From Bacteroidales bacterium (GTDB lineage Bacteria; Bacteroidota; Bacteroidia; Bacteroidales; UBA932), in assembly GCA_017480345.1 (NCBI GenBank), contig JAFVAU010000007.1, positions 1 to 47,771 on the forward strand: a stretch of 47,771 nt of DNA, in the 5' to 3' direction. Of the stretch, positions 11,308 through 16,915 are shown one piece after another. Under the pieces are notes generated by a model. That model was not told where the DNA came from, made no database searches, and saw only the letters and a program-made list of their open reading frames with translations. A program made the translations under genes and the position numbers. Position 1 is the stretch's first letter; every line of letters starts with the position of its first letter.

Positions 11308-11358
11308 TCATTCCCGGCCTGACCGGGAATCTGTGACTGGCAAGGGATGGAGGGGCCA
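11308..11358 (+). repeat. 51-bp direct repeat, left copy, beside the abiE pair
   Basis: This 51-bp segment is identical at 49 of 51 positions to 12945-12995. The two copies are in the same orientation on either side of abiEii-abiEi. It begins with a GTCAT-type palindrome (CCCGG...CCGGG) and ends with the first part of the left arm of hairpin element copy E. A partial copy of the palindrome also precedes it at 11285-11303. Confidence 0.85.
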
Positions 11359-11505
11359 GGGGGGCTCCGTTCCGCTTCGCTCCACTCCGTACCCTCCCAC
11401 TGTCTGCCTCGTCATTGCTTCGCAATAACGGCCAGCCAGCGGGCCCCTCCCTCTCCCCACGGCCGAGGGGGGCCATGCCCCCTGGCCCCTCCATCCCTTG
11501 CCAGT
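11336..11505. repeat. Hairpin repeat element, copy E (intergenic)
   Basis: Perfect 28-bp inverted arms at 11336-11363 and 11478-11505 frame a 114-bp interior. Read in reverse, the interior starts CATGGCC, then a CCCTCGGCC-like stretch, GAGGGAGGGGCCC, an extra segment, and GGAGCGAAGCGG. This is the same order of blocks as copies A, B and C, with a longer middle. The arms are unrelated to those of the other copies. It lies about 65 bp beyond the stop of abiEii. Confidence 0.8.
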
Positions 11506-11568: not shown

Positions 11569-12264
11569 TTACACATATGAAGGAAAGGCCTTGAACATGG
11601 TCAGAAGAGAGATAAGTTCATCTTTCAGACCATGCCGCACGAAATCCTTTACCTCACCTTCGGCAAGTTCACCCAAACCACTGATTAAACTCTTTTCCGA
11701 GATGTCCTGGACACTTGCTATACATTTGTCCAGGTATTCTTCCATGGGCATCTTCATACGAGATTCCACGAGTTCTTTATTAATGGATGTTCTTTCTTTT
11801 AAGAAGAACCAGCAGTCGAAGACGTCTCGACTGGTGATCTCGTTCCGGTCCAGGAGAGCGCACAACTTATGGGCAAACATGTCTTCCTTCACCATGACAC
11901 GCATCTGCAAGCCCAGATAATTCAGAATTTCATAGTGATTCTCGTAAAGGCGGTTGGATATCTCAATCTTAAGTTTCCTTTCGCCAATCCCGTAATCAAG
12001 CACAATGATTATCCCATAGTGTTTTATGGCCTCGTCGTGAATCTTGCCATATTTCAGGACAATTGTCCGAACACGGTCATAGACCTCGGTTTCTTTTTCT
12101 GCATCCAGCAGGTTGAAGTCAAGGTCCGTTGAGAAGCGCGGCAGATTGTGGAAGAACATGGTGGCTGTGCCGCCCTTAAAGGCCAGCACAGAAGAAAGCA
12201 GCGCATCAGAAAAGATGTCTTTCAGCAACTGCAGCATGAAGAATTTATGTTTATTCGTATCCAT
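11569..12264 (-). CDS. abiEii: AbiEii/AbiGii-type toxin, nucleotidyltransferase
   Basis: A 231-residue protein with the DUF1814 nucleotidyltransferase signature: FKGGTATMF at residues 29-37 and RFSTDLDF at about 43-50 supply the GG loop and the two metal-binding Asp residues. Further on come a conserved KIEIS segment and the KEDMFAHKLCALLDRNEITSRD region typical of AbiEii. AbiEii toxins are GTP-binding or CTP-using nucleotidyltransferases that stop growth during phage infection; the antitoxin AbiEi represses the operon. Here the antitoxin gene lies immediately upstream with a one-base overlap (TAATG). GC is clearly lower than in the flanking housekeeping genes. The pair sits between 51-bp direct repeats, suggesting acquisition as a cassette. 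Confidence 0.9.
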   Translation of the reverse strand: MDTNKHKFFMLQLLKDIFSDALLSSVLAFKGGTATMFFHNLPRFSTDLDFNLLDAEKETEVYDRVRTIVLKYGKIHDEAIKHYGIIIVLDYGIGERKLKIEISNRLYENHYEILNYLGLQMRVMVKEDMFAHKLCALLDRNEITSRDVFDCWFFLKERTSINKELVESRMKMPMEEYLDKCIASVQDISEKSLISGLGELAEGEVKDFVRHGLKDELISLLTMFKAFPSYV

Positions 12265-12833
12265 TATCCAAAAATTGTAGAAACTCTTTGTTCAATTGTC
12301 TTGCTATTATAGATGGGAAGGAGAGAGAACACCTTCTGTTTGTCCAAAGAGAAAGGATTGTCGAAATAGTAGTTGCTGTCCAGGTATAAAGTGTCCAGGA
12401 AGGCTCTTTCCGGAGAGGCAATACTCACGTTGCCTTCGCAGATGATGCCCGTGGTATCAATCAGGATTTCCCCCTTGATTTTCCGGTATCTGTACACCTT
12501 TCCGTCAATTTCTATACTCCTGCTCAGATTCCCTACAGAGGTAATTTCTTCGCTGTACTGGAAGATGATTCCGGCCCGCTGTAATACATATTCCAAAGAG
12601 ATGTGTGATGGTGTATAGAGAAGGCAGGCAAGTTCTTTTTCGTCGTAACCGGGTTTCGCATAGATTCCCTTACGTGGGTTGAGAATCTCACCTTTTCTGA
12701 CATATCCAATCATCCTGTTCTTCACCGTATCTCTGTCTAGCCCCTGACCATAGGCCATGGCAATCCCTTGCATAGTGAAAACACTTGCTTTATCCTTGTA
12801 AAGATCTAGGAGAAGCTGATTTTGTAAACCCAT
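12264..12833 (-). CDS. abiEi: AbiEi-type antitoxin / transcriptional regulator
   Basis: The 189-residue protein from the ATG at 12833 (MGLQNQLLLDLY) has an N-terminal winged-helix-like part (about residues 1-65: FTMQGIAMAYGQGL, VKNRMIGYVRKGEIL, NPRKGIYAKPGYDE) and an AbiEi-type C-terminal part with SHISLEYVLQRAGII and the ASPERAFLDTLYL segment common to type IV antitoxins. The upstream extension to 12872 is unlikely because it would run through the promoter box at 12862-12869. It is the first gene of the bicistron, as expected for an autoregulated antitoxin. Partner: abiEii, overlapping by one base. Confidence 0.82.
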   Translation of the reverse strand: MGLQNQLLLDLYKDKASVFTMQGIAMAYGQGLDRDTVKNRMIGYVRKGEILNPRKGIYAKPGYDEKELACLLYTPSHISLEYVLQRAGIIFQYSEEITSVGNLSRSIEIDGKVYRYRKIKGEILIDTTGIICEGNVSIASPERAFLDTLYLDSNYYFDNPFSLDKQKVFSLLPIYNSKTIEQRVSTIFG

Positions 12834-12861
12834 AGTGTTGCTGTATATTACTTTCAGTTCA

Positions 12862-12869
12862 CAAAAATA
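12862..12869 (-). promoter_or_regulatory. Promoter -7 box for abiEi-abiEii
   Basis: TATTTTTG on the minus strand in an AT-rich stretch, 28 bases before the abiEi start, with TTTGTTG further upstream as a possible -33 element. Confidence 0.6.
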
Positions 12870-12944
12870 CAAATAACTACTGAAAACAACAAATTATTTT
12901 GCTATTCGGGGCGGTTTCACGTTTTCGTGTAAAATGCAGTCATC

Positions 12945-12995
12945 TCATTCCCGGCCTGACCGGGAATCTGTGTCGGGCAAGGGATGGAGGGGCCA
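12945..12995 (+). repeat. 51-bp direct repeat, right copy
   Basis: Second copy of the repeat at 11308-11358, with 2 mismatches in 51 bp and the same orientation. It includes the GTCAT-type palindrome (CCCGGCCTGACCGGG) and breaks off 23 bp into what would be the left arm of hairpin element copy E. The core and right arm are missing here. Confidence 0.85.
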
Positions 12996-13208: not shown

Positions 13209-13235
13209 TAAGGTATAGTGAAACAGCCATTAGAC

Positions 13236-13565
13236 ATGTCTGAAATTGAAGAAATCCAGAGCGTATTACGTCGTTTTAATCAAGAGCGGGATTGGGATCA
13301 ATTCCATAATGGGAAAGATTTGGCCATTGGTATCTCTGTTGAGGCATCGGAGTTGTTGGAAGCCTTCCTTTGGAAAAAACCGGAAGAAATCAGTGTTGAG
13401 AAAGTTAAAGAGGAATTGGCCGATGTTTTGAACTACGCCTTCCAGATGGCAGACAAGTACAATCTCAACATCAAGGAAATCATGCTGGCAAAAATCCACA
13501 AGAATGCAGCGAAATATCCTGTTGAGAAAGCGAAAGGAAGTGCAAAGAAATATAATGAGCTATGA
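13236..13565 (+). CDS. MazG-like nucleotide pyrophosphohydrolase
   Basis: A 109-residue all-alpha NTP pyrophosphatase. DLAIGISVEASELLEAFLW provides the ExxE of the metal-binding helix and VKEELADVLNYAFQMAD the second ExxD helix, the signature of short MazG/dCTPase-like enzymes that hydrolyse (d)NTPs to monophosphates. The start MSEIEEIQ at 13236 matches the usual family N-terminus; a GTG six codons earlier (13218) is possible but close to the expected transcription start. The stop overlaps the helicase-peptidase gene by ATGA, so the two are translationally coupled. Context with a nuclease-helicase and a nucleoside-transferase-like protein suggests a role in nucleotide-based defence or stress rather than plain house-cleaning (inference). 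Confidence 0.88.
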   Translation: MSEIEEIQSVLRRFNQERDWDQFHNGKDLAIGISVEASELLEAFLWKKPEEISVEKVKEELADVLNYAFQMADKYNLNIKEIMLAKIHKNAAKYPVEKAKGSAKKYNEL

Positions 13566-15934
13566 TTGTATACAGTTCTACAAAGAGCGGTTTCTCAAAG
13601 GATATCTTTGACGGAGTCCTTACGGATAAGATAGAAAACGCTTTTTTTACTCATTTAGGACGGCATACATCCGAAAACGAGGTTCGTTCTTGGAATAATT
13701 CCTTACAGTATATGGATCGTGTACTTTGCGATCCTGCTATCCCCGAGGATTGTGGAGTATCTATTGAATATCAGATTCCCCTTACATCTAAAAGAATTGA
13801 TTTTATTATTTCTGGTATTGATAAAGATGACAATTCATCCATTGTTATCGTTGAATTGAAACAGTGGAAATCTGCCAAAATAACGAAAAAGGACGGTGTG
13901 GTAGTAACTCGTTTTATGCACGGGGAGGCAGAGACTGCCCATCCTTCTTATCAAGCGTGGTCTTATGCGGCCACTCTTAAAGATTACAACACAACTGTTC
14001 AAGATGACAAGATTGATCTTCACCCCTGCGCTTTTCTGCATAACTACCAAGAAGATAATATAATAAATAACCCCTTTTACTCATATTATCTGAATCTTGC
14101 TCCTGCTTTTTTTAAGAAAGACGCTCAAAAGCTTCGGAATTTCATAAAGAAATACATTAATAAAGGTGACGACCGGGATTTGCTATATAAAATTGAGAAT
14201 GGGCACATTCGTCCTTCCAAGCAACTGAGCGAGACGCTATCCTCAATGTTGAAAGGGAATTCGGAGTTTTTCCTTCTGGATGACCAAAAAGTGGCATACG
14301 AAACAGCTCTTGAAATTAGCCAGCACGCAGACGGAATCAAGAAGCAAATACTGATAATTGAAGGAGGACCTGGTACAGGAAAAAGTGTGTTGGCAATCAA
14401 TCTACTGGTCGAATTTACCAAGCGAGGTTTGGTCACTCAGTATGTATCCAAAAATTCAGCACCTCGGCAGGTTTATACGGCAAAATTGACCGGAAGTATG
14501 CGGAAGAGCAATATTGACAACCTGTTTGTGGGCTCCGGGAAATTTGTTGAAACTGACAGTAATACATTTGATGTGCTGATTGTGGACGAAGCACATCGTC
14601 TGTCCATGAAGAGTGGAATGTACCAGAACTTGGGCGATAATCAAATCAAAGAGATTATCAATGCTTCAAAGTTGGCTATTTTCTTAGTGGATAATAACCA
14701 GCGAGTAACTATGCAGGACATTGGTGGAACAGCGGAAATTGCTCGATATGCGGCATCGTATAAACATGCAATAACGCATCTTAAACTTGAATCACAATTT
14801 CGTTGTAACGGATCCGATGGTTATCTTAGTTGGTTAGATAATCTACTTCAAATACGTGAAACTGCCAACATTCATTTGTCTTCAGAAGATTTTGACTTCC
14901 AGATATTTGATGATCCAAATTCCTTACGTAAAGCCATAAATGCAAGGAATGGAAACAACAGAGCCCGCTTGGTGGCCGGGTACTGTTGGGATTGGGTTAG
15001 TAAATCAAATCCAGTTCTGGACGATATCATTATTTCAGAACACGGTTTTAGCATGAAGTGGAATCTGAATTCGTATGGTCAACGCTGGATTATTGAACCG
15101 GATTCAGTGAACGAAATAGGCTGCATCCATACTTGTCAAGGGCTCGAGTTGGACTATGTCGGTGTTATAATCGGTCTGGATATGCGATATGAAAATGGAA
15201 AAGTTGTTACAGATTTTCATAAACACCCGGGTAGAGACAAAGCAATGCAAGGATTAAGGCAGTTATACAAAGTTTCACCTGATGCGGCAAAAAAGAAAGC
15301 TGATGAACTTATAAAGAATACCTATCGCGTCCTATTATCTCGCGGTATGAAGGGATGTTTTGTTTATTTTTGCGATCCGGGTATGGCTGAGTACGCCCGT
15401 TCCCTGATGACCTCCCAGAAAATTAAACCTGAAACCGAACTAATTCCCAATAATGTCATTAGGATTGAACCACAAGTAAGCCATGAGGTTAAATATGTGG
15501 ATTTCCTTCCTTTTTATTCCATTCGCGCTGCGTGTGGTTATTTTGGCAATGGCGAAGAAGTTGAAGAACTGGGTTGGATTAGGGTTGATGGTATGGGAAA
15601 ACTAAATCGTAATATGTTTGTTGTAAAGGCGTGCGGCAATTCAATGGAACCAAGGATTCATAATGGGGACTATTGTGTCTTTAGAGCTAATCCCGCAGGA
15701 AGCCGAGAGGGAAAAATCGTTTTGGTTCAGAATCACATGTCGTATGATCCGGAATATGGTGGAAGCTATGCGATCAAGAAATACTCCAGCGAAAAACATT
15801 ATTACTCAGATGGGACATGGCGGCATTCTGATATCATTCTTAAACCGCTTAATCCGGAGTTTACTCCCATCATATTAAGTGAGGACGATTCTGAAAGATT
15901 TCGTGTGATAGGAGAGTTTTTAGGGGTGTTATAG
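13562..15934 (+). CDS. Nuclease - DUF2075 helicase - S24 (LexA-type) peptidase fusion
   Basis: A 790-residue three-part protein. Residues about 1-180 look like a PD-(D/E)XK nuclease: D80 in KRIDFII and E98-L-K100 in VIVELKQWK. Residues about 260-640 are a DUF2075/Schlafen-type superfamily 1 helicase with Walker A GGPGTGKS (268-275), Walker B VDEAH (D342-E343), a VDNNQRVTMQ sensor, HTCQGLELDYVGVI and a late TYRVLLSRGMKG motif. Residues about 665-790 are an S24 peptidase domain: GNSMEP with Ser694, VLVQNH, then YAIKKY with Lys739 or Lys740, the Ser-Lys dyad arrangement of LexA and UmuD. All three sites appear intact. Base composition is AT-rich and codon use differs from the neighbours, suggesting transfer. 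The C-terminal domain could sense DNA damage or phage signals and release the nuclease-helicase by self-cleavage (inference). No Ala-Gly or Cys-Gly cleavage site was firmly assigned; AACGYF at about 666-671 is a candidate. Confidence 0.87.
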   Translation: MIVYSSTKSGFSKDIFDGVLTDKIENAFFTHLGRHTSENEVRSWNNSLQYMDRVLCDPAIPEDCGVSIEYQIPLTSKRIDFIISGIDKDDNSSIVIVELKQWKSAKITKKDGVVVTRFMHGEAETAHPSYQAWSYAATLKDYNTTVQDDKIDLHPCAFLHNYQEDNIINNPFYSYYLNLAPAFFKKDAQKLRNFIKKYINKGDDRDLLYKIENGHIRPSKQLSETLSSMLKGNSEFFLLDDQKVAYETALEISQHADGIKKQILIIEGGPGTGKSVLAINLLVEFTKRGLVTQYVSKNSAPRQVYTAKLTGSMRKSNIDNLFVGSGKFVETDSNTFDVLIVDEAHRLSMKSGMYQNLGDNQIKEIINASKLAIFLVDNNQRVTMQDIGGTAEIARYAASYKHAITHLKLESQFRCNGSDGYLSWLDNLLQIRETANIHLSSEDFDFQIFDDPNSLRKAINARNGNNRARLVAGYCWDWVSKSNPVLDDIIISEHGFSMKWNLNSYGQRWIIEPDSVNEIGCIHTCQGLELDYVGVIIGLDMRYENGKVVTDFHKHPGRDKAMQGLRQLYKVSPDAAKKKADELIKNTYRVLLSRGMKGCFVYFCDPGMAEYARSLMTSQKIKPETELIPNNVIRIEPQVSHEVKYVDFLPFYSIRAACGYFGNGEEVEELGWIRVDGMGKLNRNMFVVKACGNSMEPRIHNGDYCVFRANPAGSREGKIVLVQNHMSYDPEYGGSYAIKKYSSEKHYYSDGTWRHSDIILKPLNPEFTPIILSEDDSERFRVIGEFLGVL

Positions 15935-15944
15935 AATTGAATCC

Positions 15945-16310
15945 GTGGCAGGAAAGTATCCAGTCATAACTCTTTGCGGCAGCACGCGTTTCAAGGAGCA
16001 GTTTCTTGAAGCGCAGAAGCGCCTCACCCTTGAAGGCAACATAGTCATCAGTGTCGGCCTTTTCGGCCATTCCGGAGACAATGAAGTGTGGTCAGAAGGC
16101 ACCAAGGAGATGCTGGACGACATGCACAAGCGCAAGATCGACATGGCCGACGCTATCTACGTGATTAACGTGGGCGGCTACATTGGAGAAAGCACTCGTT
16201 CGGAAATCGAATATGCCGAAAGCATCGGCAAGGAGATTTTATATCTGGAGGACAACCGGGTTATTAAGGATTACTTAACAACTGCAGACGATGGGAGGAC
16301 ATGCCGATGA
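15945..16310 (+). CDS. Nucleoside 2-deoxyribosyltransferase-like protein
   Basis: A 121-residue Rossmann-like protein starting at GTG 15945, ten bases after the helicase gene. ITLCGSTRFKEQFLEAQ at the N-terminus, DMADAIYVINVGGYIGEST in the middle and EIEYAESIGKEILYL resemble the nucleoside deoxyribosyltransferase/DUF4406 superfamily, where the Glu of the GES part is the likely nucleophile. Related folds cleave N-glycosidic bonds of nucleosides or NAD derivatives. GTG is the only reasonable start because the core motif begins a few codons later. It is the third gene of the mazG-helicase operon. Base composition is higher in GC than the helicase gene, so it may have a different history. Whether it is an enzyme or a nucleotide sensor cannot be told. 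Confidence 0.72.
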   Translation: MAGKYPVITLCGSTRFKEQFLEAQKRLTLEGNIVISVGLFGHSGDNEVWSEGTKEMLDDMHKRKIDMADAIYVINVGGYIGESTRSEIEYAESIGKEILYLEDNRVIKDYLTTADDGRTCR

Positions 16311-16342: not shown

Positions 16343-16375
16343 TAGTTGTTATTGGAACTGATTCACTACCGTGCA

Positions 16376-16915
16376 ATGGAACAGTACTACCGCCACTTCC
16401 GCAATAGGAAAATCTACCGCTTTGTGACTTTCGCCACCCTTGAGGCGACGGAGGAGGAGGCGGTGGTGTACCAGGCCATGTACGGGGACCGCCGGTACTG
16501 GATTAGGACAAAAACCAACTTCTTTGAGGAGGTCTTGTATGATGGCAAAATGGTGCCCCGGTTCCAGGCTATCTCAAAGGAAGAAGCGCTAAAGGAAATT
16601 GTAACACCCACTCAACCTGTTCAAAAAATGAGAGACGTAAGCAAACTTTCAGATAGCACCTCTGGCGGGATTCGCAGCACATCGTTCGCTACGTGCGGCA
16701 TCACGTGCTCCACGCAGATCAACCTTCAGACGGAGGGGGACATCATTCGCCGCGTAGAAATTGTCAAAGGCTGCGACGGAAACACCAAGGGCCTGGCCAA
16801 GCTCTGCGAGGGACGCAAGATACAGGACGTCATCGGCCTTCTGGAGGGCATTGACTGCAAAGGCCGGGGCACCAGCTGCCCGGACCAGTTGGCAAAAGCA
16901 CTGAAACAGCTGTAA
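16376..16915 (+). CDS. DUF1653 - TSCPD domain fusion protein
   Basis: A 179-residue protein from the ATG at 16376 (an in-frame TTG at 16346 lies in the expected leader). Residues about 1-60 are a DUF1653 domain (YYRHF, VVYQAMYGD, YWIRTKTNFFEEV). After a linker of about 40 residues, residues about 100-179 form a TSCPD domain: TCGITCSTQINL, KGCDGNTKGLAKLCEG, and the naming motif GRGTSCPDQLAKAL. TSCPD modules occur as small stand-alone proteins and at the C-terminus of B12-dependent ribonucleotide reductases, where their Cys residues suggest metal binding. DUF1653 has no firmly known function. I normally expect these two as separate genes, so the single continuous frame looks like a real fusion. 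It follows the putative defence operon but has its own promoter. Confidence 0.8.
   Translation: MEQYYRHFRNRKIYRFVTFATLEATEEEAVVYQAMYGDRRYWIRTKTNFFEEVLYDGKMVPRFQAISKEEALKEIVTPTQPVQKMRDVSKLSDSTSGGIRSTSFATCGITCSTQINLQTEGDIIRRVEIVKGCDGNTKGLAKLCEGRKIQDVIGLLEGIDCKGRGTSCPDQLAKALKQL

Follow-up and report, generated by a model that had tools for sequence, protein, structure and literature searches.

Among the described systems closest to the locus studied here, SauUSI, an enzyme of PLD-ResIII-DUF3427 architecture, is reported to cut DNA containing 5-methylcytosine (m5C) or 5-hydroxymethylcytosine (hm5C) (PMC3874153), and the HsdR subunit of EcoKI is reported to be targeted by ClpXP in restriction alleviation (PMC4231737). 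A Cys-Gly cleavage bond in UmuD and an SOS response in Bacteroidetes have also been reported, and human DCTPP1 is reported to have a lower Km for 5-methyl-dCTP than for dCTP (PMC4491611). Here we analyzed a stretch of 47,771 nucleotides from a Bacteroidales bacterium (contig JAFVAU010000007.1; hereafter the window), which carries on its plus strand a gene for a 109-aa MazG-like all-alpha NTP pyrophosphohydrolase (gene 1, 13236–13565), a gene for a 790-aa fusion of nuclease, Schlafen group 3 (SLFN-g3) helicase and S24 peptidase (gene 2, 13562–15934), and a gene for a 121-aa protein with a DNPH1/nucleoside deoxyribosyltransferase (NDT) fold (gene 3, 15945–16310). A sequence-only reading of the window had proposed the three genes as a candidate anti-phage operon, and the open reading frame (ORF) listing bore out their tight spacing, with a 4-bp overlap between genes 1 and 2 and a 10-bp gap between genes 2 and 3. 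Comparison with other genomes revealed a two-gene cassette of MazG and nuclease-helicase that is conserved across bacteria and archaea and in which the S24 module is optional. A mobile restriction-like defence cassette, composed of the nuclease-helicase, MazG and an S24 switch, is the best explanation of these data, and we give it a probability of about one half.

A Pfam scan of the gene 2 protein revealed a match to the SLFN-g3 helicase family PF09848, which we take to be the former DUF2075 (E 2.8e-104, 349.7 bits; cut-off 24); relatives of gene 2 are likewise labelled DUF2075 proteins in plasmid annotation. The superfamily 1 (SF1)-type helicase core (aa 230–617; 14249–15412) contains a Walker A motif (268–275, with K274) and a DEAH box (342–345). 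The N-terminal domain (aa 1–230; 13562–14251) is a putative PD-(D/E)XK nuclease, judging from its motif (D80...E98-L-K100), its conservation and its predicted secondary structure, which comprises strands at 65–71, 78–86 and 92–99, a helix at 128–142 and a strand at 152–159 in a model with a mean predicted local distance difference test (pLDDT) score of 79. Residues D80, E98, K100, K274, D342 and E343 were invariant in 16/16 aligned sequences. The sole nuclease-family match in the Pfam scan, NERD, was below the cut-off, and whole-model fold searches were filled by helicases and uninformative on the N-terminal domain; UvrD, RecD2 and Dna2 were among the close fold matches of the helicase core. 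The core shares its family and fold with the Schlafen group 3 helicases (SLFN11/14), whereas the N-terminus, a putative DNA nuclease, differs from that of Schlafen proteins, which has an RNase fold.

The C-terminal, LexA/UmuD-like S24 domain (15509–15931) matched PF00717 (E 2.1e-8, 34.3 bits; cut-off 23.3) and retains the self-cleavage anatomy of that family, with a dyad of Ser694 and Lys739 and a predicted scissile bond, Cys658-Gly659 (nt 15533–15538), in the linker between helicase and peptidase (aa 618–676; 15413–15589). This linker was modelled with low confidence (pLDDT <50 at 618–661 and 663–676), as was the S24 domain (pLDDT about 60). The Cys/Ala-Gly bond and the Ser-Lys dyad are shared with LexA and UmuD; the difference lies in the fusion partner, a nuclease-helicase here and a DNA-binding repressor in LexA-type proteins.

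Gene 1 matched PF12643 in the Pfam scan (E 6.8e-18, 65.1 bits; cut-off 27), and its catalytic motifs, E36xxE39 and E60xxD63, are present. Solved relatives of the protein are 4qgp and DCTPP1/RS21-C6 (6sqw/2a3q, E 2.4e-15, with an alignment reaching the query C-terminus). MazG and DCTPP1 align over the MazG length, and 7 of 8 pocket residues match. In the docked DCTPP1 pocket, as reported, these residues are His38, Trp47, Glu63, Glu66, Trp73, Glu95, Asp98 and Tyr102, and the tryptophans contact the methyl group (PMC4491611); their equivalents in the window are L11, W20, E36, E39, W46, E60, D63 and Y67, so that all are kept except His38, which is replaced by Leu11. Thus the enzyme assignments of the sequence-only reading stood, a (d)NTP pyrophosphohydrolase followed by a nuclease-DUF2075-S24 fusion (the nuclease as a putative one), and so did its claim of intact catalytic motifs (E36/E39/E60/D63, D80/E98/K100, K274, DEAH, S694 and K739).

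We collected 96 helicase ORFs, which are the best matches to the window protein rather than a random sample; some of them are fragments, and a few represent the same locus more than once. A same-strand MazG gene lay within 1.5 kb of 68 of them (59 upstream, 9 downstream), within 60 bp in 62 cases, and often overlapped the helicase gene by 4 bp; one further adjacent MazG (locus L073, genome G862) had been overlooked through the start codon chosen. The reverse survey revealed 29 MazG matches in 27/395 genomes of the window's own phylum, and 17 of these lay directly beside SLFN-g3 helicase sequence, one of them weak and in a fragment (L163). Another (L165/L042) was separated from the helicase by 1.1 kb and a single gene, which brings the matches beside or one gene off to 18/29. 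A search of 11 helicase-bearing genomes found MazG in 8, in all 8 beside an SLFN-g3 helicase; in Chitinophaga it adjoins a second SLFN-g3 helicase, other than the one first found. The co-occurrence proposed for the three genes was thus borne out for MazG and the nuclease-helicase and not for gene 3, as detailed below. Two seemingly damaged copies were also seen, namely MazG matches in two pieces in genome G455 (L002) and a fragmented helicase on a Marivirga plasmid (L023).

The genome scan yielded 17 relatives of gene 2, and more came from plasmid, phage and whole-genome draws. Relatives occurred in 7/60 related genomes besides the window's own and in 23/395 genomes of the own-phylum draw (own counted; five of these matches to the tail only). 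Helicase relatives are frequent in places: a draw from one phylum, with many small genomes, contained SLFN-g3 relatives in 72/392, and 30 loci were fetched from this draw, 21 of them with MazG within 1.5 kb. Several SLFN-g3 copies in that draw contain 4–8 in-frame TGA codons, as expected if TGA encodes Trp. MazG-paired gene 2 relatives were found in Priestia, Halomonas, Actinomycetes, Bacteroidota and small genomes apparently reading TGA as Trp; the archaea with gene 2 were Halalkalicoccus (MazG present) and Methanosphaera (no MazG seen). Plasmids carry the pair too, as does a 22-kb record of Microcystis phage Mwe-JY31 (L026), where two neighbours were scanned and gave no PADLOC match; a pattern scan of viral contigs did not find the helicase. 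Several annotated pair loci lie near restriction genes. The N-terminus is of another type in 13/86 helicases of the tree, and four of these that were scanned matched GIY-YIG (three over the Pfam cut-off, one below). MazG accompanies 15/19 ORFs without a PD-type N-terminus, a set that includes fragments; its partners comprise nuclease-helicases with either N-terminus, PD-type or GIY-YIG.

The S24 tail is shared with other restriction-type enzymes. It also terminates MazG-paired GIY-YIG-SLFN-g3 proteins, SauUSI-like type IV enzymes paired with NUDIX, and one type I HsdR. By eye, an [A/C]-G scissile bond and the Ser-Lys dyad were present in 25/25 S24 rows, some of which are near-identical or fragments. 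On the tree of 86 helicases, S24 presence required six changes, at least 4 of them forced by well-supported branches. An unrooted tree built from 24 S24 domains placed the window tail and four close relatives on the same side of a well-supported branch (96/96) as three HsdR-like tails, and the other side of that branch held the tails of three PD-type proteins (from Halomonas and two other genomes of the Pseudomonadota draw) together with GIY-YIG and PLD-DUF3427 tails. Because PD-type tails fall on both sides of this branch, the trees suggest that PD-type nuclease-helicases gained the tail more than once. In L019 and L046 (L046/L125) the tail is encoded by a separate ORF, seemingly in broken copies.

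SauUSI-like PLD-ResIII-DUF3427 proteins with a C-terminal S24 domain and an overlapping upstream NUDIX gene were found at L276–L279 and at L112:5032-8887; in PADLOC terms, the L112 S24 carrier scored as mREase_IV (1e-223) and the NUDIX that overlaps it as PDC-S07. Among solved structures, this NUDIX is most closely related to a putative CTP pyrophosphohydrolase; MutT proteins follow lower in the list. NUDIX was adjacent in 17 of 30 DUF3427 loci fetched (of 37 places found) and in 7/7 of the closest, and MazG was adjacent to the DUF3427 enzyme in 0/30 of the fetched loci. At L013:4988-10650 both kinds of unit stand in tandem, a MazG-SLFN-g3 pair followed directly downstream by a NUDIX-SauUSI-like pair. 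SauUSI-type systems (mREase_IV + PDC-S07) thus resemble the window system in joining nuclease and helicase in one chain, in placing an NTP pyrophosphohydrolase gene directly upstream and in the optional S24. They differ in their components (PLD, SF2 motor, DUF3427 and NUDIX, against PD-(D/E)XK, SF1 SLFN-g3 and MazG), and cleavage of m5C/hm5C DNA has been reported for SauUSI, whereas the window protein is a predicted nuclease. Gene 2 was not assigned to the SauUSI family, given these other nuclease and motor domains and no DUF3427 match in its protein. An HsdR-like protein with HSDR_N and type I motor domains ends in S24 at L111:4025-7570, where HsdS and a PtuA-like ATPase are also encoded, and an S24-tailed protein with the same neighbours, HsdR by context only, lies at L110:8036-11584. 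These motor-nucleases end in a domain homologous to that of the window protein, and the L111 protein differs from it in the HsdS of its locus, its motor and the absence of any MazG found; the tail on both may represent built-in restriction alleviation.

In the restriction-like defence cassette that we favour, the large protein would translocate on and cut foreign, perhaps modified, DNA by means of its N-terminal PD-(D/E)XK-type nuclease and SF1 (SLFN-g3) motor. MazG would hydrolyze non-canonical dNTPs, probably with a 5-modified pyrimidine, and could thereby either starve a phage with modified DNA of its precursors or block the salvage of digestion-freed modified nucleotides into the host chromosome, where they would become targets. 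Degraded methylated DNA is reported to be perhaps the main source of 5-methyl-dCTP, which the E. coli NUDIX enzyme Orf135 destroys (PMC10742078), and the analogy suggests sanitation by MazG, with modified nucleotides freed from degraded modified DNA being kept out of the host genome. The nucleotide depletion envisaged by the sequence-only reading appears less likely than such sanitation, because the nearest characterized MazG relatives are dCTP/5-modified-dCTP pyrophosphatases and because an unrelated NUDIX enzyme occupies the same place beside SauUSI-like enzymes. The S24 domain would act as a LexA/UmuD-type switch, in which DNA damage (a RecA filament) induces self-cleavage at Cys658-Gly659. 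Cleavage would most likely turn restriction off and spare the damaged host chromosome, in the manner of type I restriction alleviation; HsdR, SauUSI-like and SLFN-g3 enzymes that end in such a tail would achieve alleviation directly, by cutting themselves.

Several results weigh against this interpretation or parts of it. With L073 counted as paired, no nearby MazG was found for 27/96 helicase ORFs, including a few fragments or repeats of one locus; of 13 apparently MazG-less genomes checked, five had no MazG match at E 1e-4 (some of these being incomplete), seven had one elsewhere and one had it adjacent (the G862/L073 case above). Ten neighbouring proteins (nine from the surroundings of helicases that lack MazG, the tenth from downstream of L002) were scanned against Pfam, and no shared substitute for MazG emerged. 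In the reverse direction, 11/29 own-phylum MazG matches lay away from a helicase. The tail is optional, being carried by 18/86 helicases; the idea of a damage-type switch in the earlier reading is strengthened by the intact self-cleavage site. As for MazG specificity, the position of His38 was Leu, Ile, Val, Met or Ala in 64/69 helicase-locus MazGs (the other five being 3 gaps and 2 unprinted states), as it was in 19/19 MazGs away from a helicase; His was found in none of the 67/69 printed helicase-locus states and none of the 19/19 others. W20 was kept in 67/69 helicase-locus MazGs (2 gaps) and in 18/19 of the others, and W46 in 66/69 (1 Phe, 2 gaps) and 19/19, respectively. Because His38 is replaced and both tryptophans are equally kept away from the helicase, cytosine specificity of MazG is unproven and the pocket is not specific to the unit; its choice of base may differ from that of DCTPP1. 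A comparison for anti-correlation with C5-methyltransferases was negative: these enzymes occurred in 9/18 carriers (of both N-terminal types) and 7/18 non-carriers, at least one of which holds a DUF3427 relative, and since they are not rarer in carriers, plain m5C DNA is an unlikely target. The window's genome (91% complete) had no C5-methyltransferase match; other methylases were not searched. A possible enrichment in defence islands, one of the checks suggested by the sequence-only reading, was examined with a matched control: at E 1e-20, 112 neighbours from 19 loci matched 55 PADLOC families versus 35 for 113 control genes of the same 19 genomes, a test that counts families, not proteins, with 25 control families listed that are mostly type I methylase models, one protein each.

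A self-cleavage site that is intact and lies within a flexible linker, the intact active-site residues of MazG and the abiE genes next door would also fit abortive infection, in which phage DNA damage triggers S24 cleavage, the released nuclease-helicase becomes active, MazG depletes dNTPs, and phage and host are stopped together. Cleavage release cannot be the core mechanism, however, because 68/86 homologues are tail-less and many of these are MazG-paired. The nearest characterized MazG relative is reported to prefer dCTP, plain or modified, to other dNTPs, and HsdR and SauUSI-like enzymes share the tail, type I HsdR being reported as an enzyme that needs switching off (PMC4231737). We regard abortive infection as unlikely. 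The earlier anti-phage interpretation is partly supported, the observation beneath it being confirmed.

A somewhat poorer account, and in our estimate an improbable one, is a mobile DNA-repair/SOS cassette, comparable to plasmid-borne UmuDC, in which a damage-responsive nuclease-helicase acts with a cleaner of the nucleotide pool. It would account for a UmuD/LexA-like S24 domain with a Cys-Gly bond as reported for UmuD, for the membership of MazG in families that, like NUDIX, are described as house-cleaning enzymes, and for the proximity of the helicase core to UvrD, RecD2 and Dna2. It sits poorly with the patchy presence of the genes (7/60 relatives and 23/395 phylum genomes, five tail-only), the low G+C of genes 1 and 2, the plasmid-borne copies and the occurrence in a phage record, and the fact that this tail is otherwise seen on restriction enzymes.

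Still less probable is a toxin-antitoxin-like pair, with MazG as regulator or antidote of a toxic nuclease-helicase by hydrolyzing an activating nucleotide ligand. The small gene mostly stands first, which is a common order in toxin-antitoxin pairs, and often overlaps its partner by 4 bp; but 27/96 helicase ORFs stand without a nearby MazG, the order is reversed in 9, and five MazG-less copies reside in the genomes, some incomplete, without a MazG match at E 1e-4.

Beyond the defence cassette itself, the comparison with SauUSI-like and HsdR enzymes raises the tentative and, to us, rather doubtful proposal of a previously undescribed, modular class of restriction systems, built from an interchangeable nuclease-helicase, a dedicated sanitizer and a transferable LexA-type tail. 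The nuclease-helicase would be PD-(D/E)XK- or GIY-YIG-SLFN-g3 or, by analogy, PLD-SF2-DUF3427, and the sanitizer, MazG or NUDIX, would destroy the triphosphates of the modified bases that the nuclease hunts, preventing self-restriction via salvage. The tail would build SOS-triggered restriction alleviation into a subset of these enzymes and of HsdR subunits. If the restriction-like interpretation is right, it bears on why nucleotide house-cleaning enzymes stand beside restriction-type nucleases, whether to prevent scavenged modified bases from entering the host genome or to deny them to the phage, and on how a restriction motor might be shut down upon host DNA damage, the LexA-like tail being a testable link between SOS and restriction.

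The sequence-only reading had not recognized the operon as a named system, and the database comparison agreed. In a scan against PADLOC-DB 2.0.0, MazG was unmatched and the helicase gave partial matches only; PDC-S41, AbiO and Nhi share partial similarity with gene 2, mostly in the helicase region, and were rejected as assignments because the scores were low and gene 2 matched parts of each profile only. The pair is not among the 2023 PADLOC models scanned and could be added to defence catalogues. We found no paper on a MazG-DUF2075 pair in the open PubMed Central (PMC) literature, which leaves out preprints and most subscription papers, where it may be in print; nor did PMC literature yield a paper linking DUF2075 with defence, or anything judged related on MazG with Schlafen. 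The accessible text of a BREX survey contains neither MazG nor DUF2075 (PMC12839542), and that of DefensePredictor mentions an unvalidated MazG system, its partners not named there, which could be this pair (PMC13092281).

Gene 3 matched only DUF4406, below the cut-off (E 0.004), in the Pfam scan. Its model (pLDDT 80) was closest in fold to DNPH1, NDTs and MilB (best E 9e-5, template modelling (TM) score about 0.6); DNPH1 is a hydrolase of hydroxymethyl-dUMP (hmdUMP), and one matched MilB entry holds 5-hydroxymethyl-CMP according to its title. Invariant residues include C11, G12, S13 and E87, which are likely active-site residues. With tblastn, gene 3 gave 0 matches in the helicase loci obtained by other queries, among them L002 with its 83% identity; the flanks were mostly at least 1.5 kb, sufficient to reveal a neighbour. 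The gene 3 family is frequent in viral contigs (73 loci, L203–L275), and their flanks of up to 3 kb contained neither MazG nor a window-type helicase. A three-gene sanitation and restriction operon, in which MazG yields a modified dNMP and gene 3 splits it into base and sugar phosphate, is therefore rejected as a unit and very improbable as an explanation, despite the 10-bp spacing, the DNPH1/NDT/MilB-like fold and the invariant residues, since gene 3 is missing from other helicase loci, the pair is missing beside viral gene 3, and the G+C of gene 3 differs from that of genes 1 and 2. We judged gene 3 to be incidental to the MazG-helicase unit and outside its conserved part; an enzyme of the nucleotide N-glycosidase type might have a place in sanitation, but co-occurrence lends this idea no support.

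The G+C content was 0.41 in gene 1 and 0.40 in gene 2, compared with 0.61 in the nearby ROK and recG genes; the description of the operon as AT-rich thus holds for the first two genes and less so for gene 3 (0.505). An alternative GTG start of gene 1 lies at 13218, and promoter and terminator scans gave signals at chance level only. The abiE pair and repeats noted earlier beside the operon were recovered, as a neighbouring separate system on the minus strand: the abiEii toxin gene (11569–12264; PDLC02324, E 7.5e-104) and the abiEi antitoxin gene (12264–12872; PDLC02255, E 4.7e-74). Two copies of a 51-bp repeat, 96% identical, flank abiE on either side (11308–11358 and 12945–12995), and a perfect 28-nt inverted pair lies close to them (11336–11505); together these may constitute a miniature mobile element. 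Just downstream of gene 3, one protein (16346–16915) joins DUF1653 and TSCPD domains.

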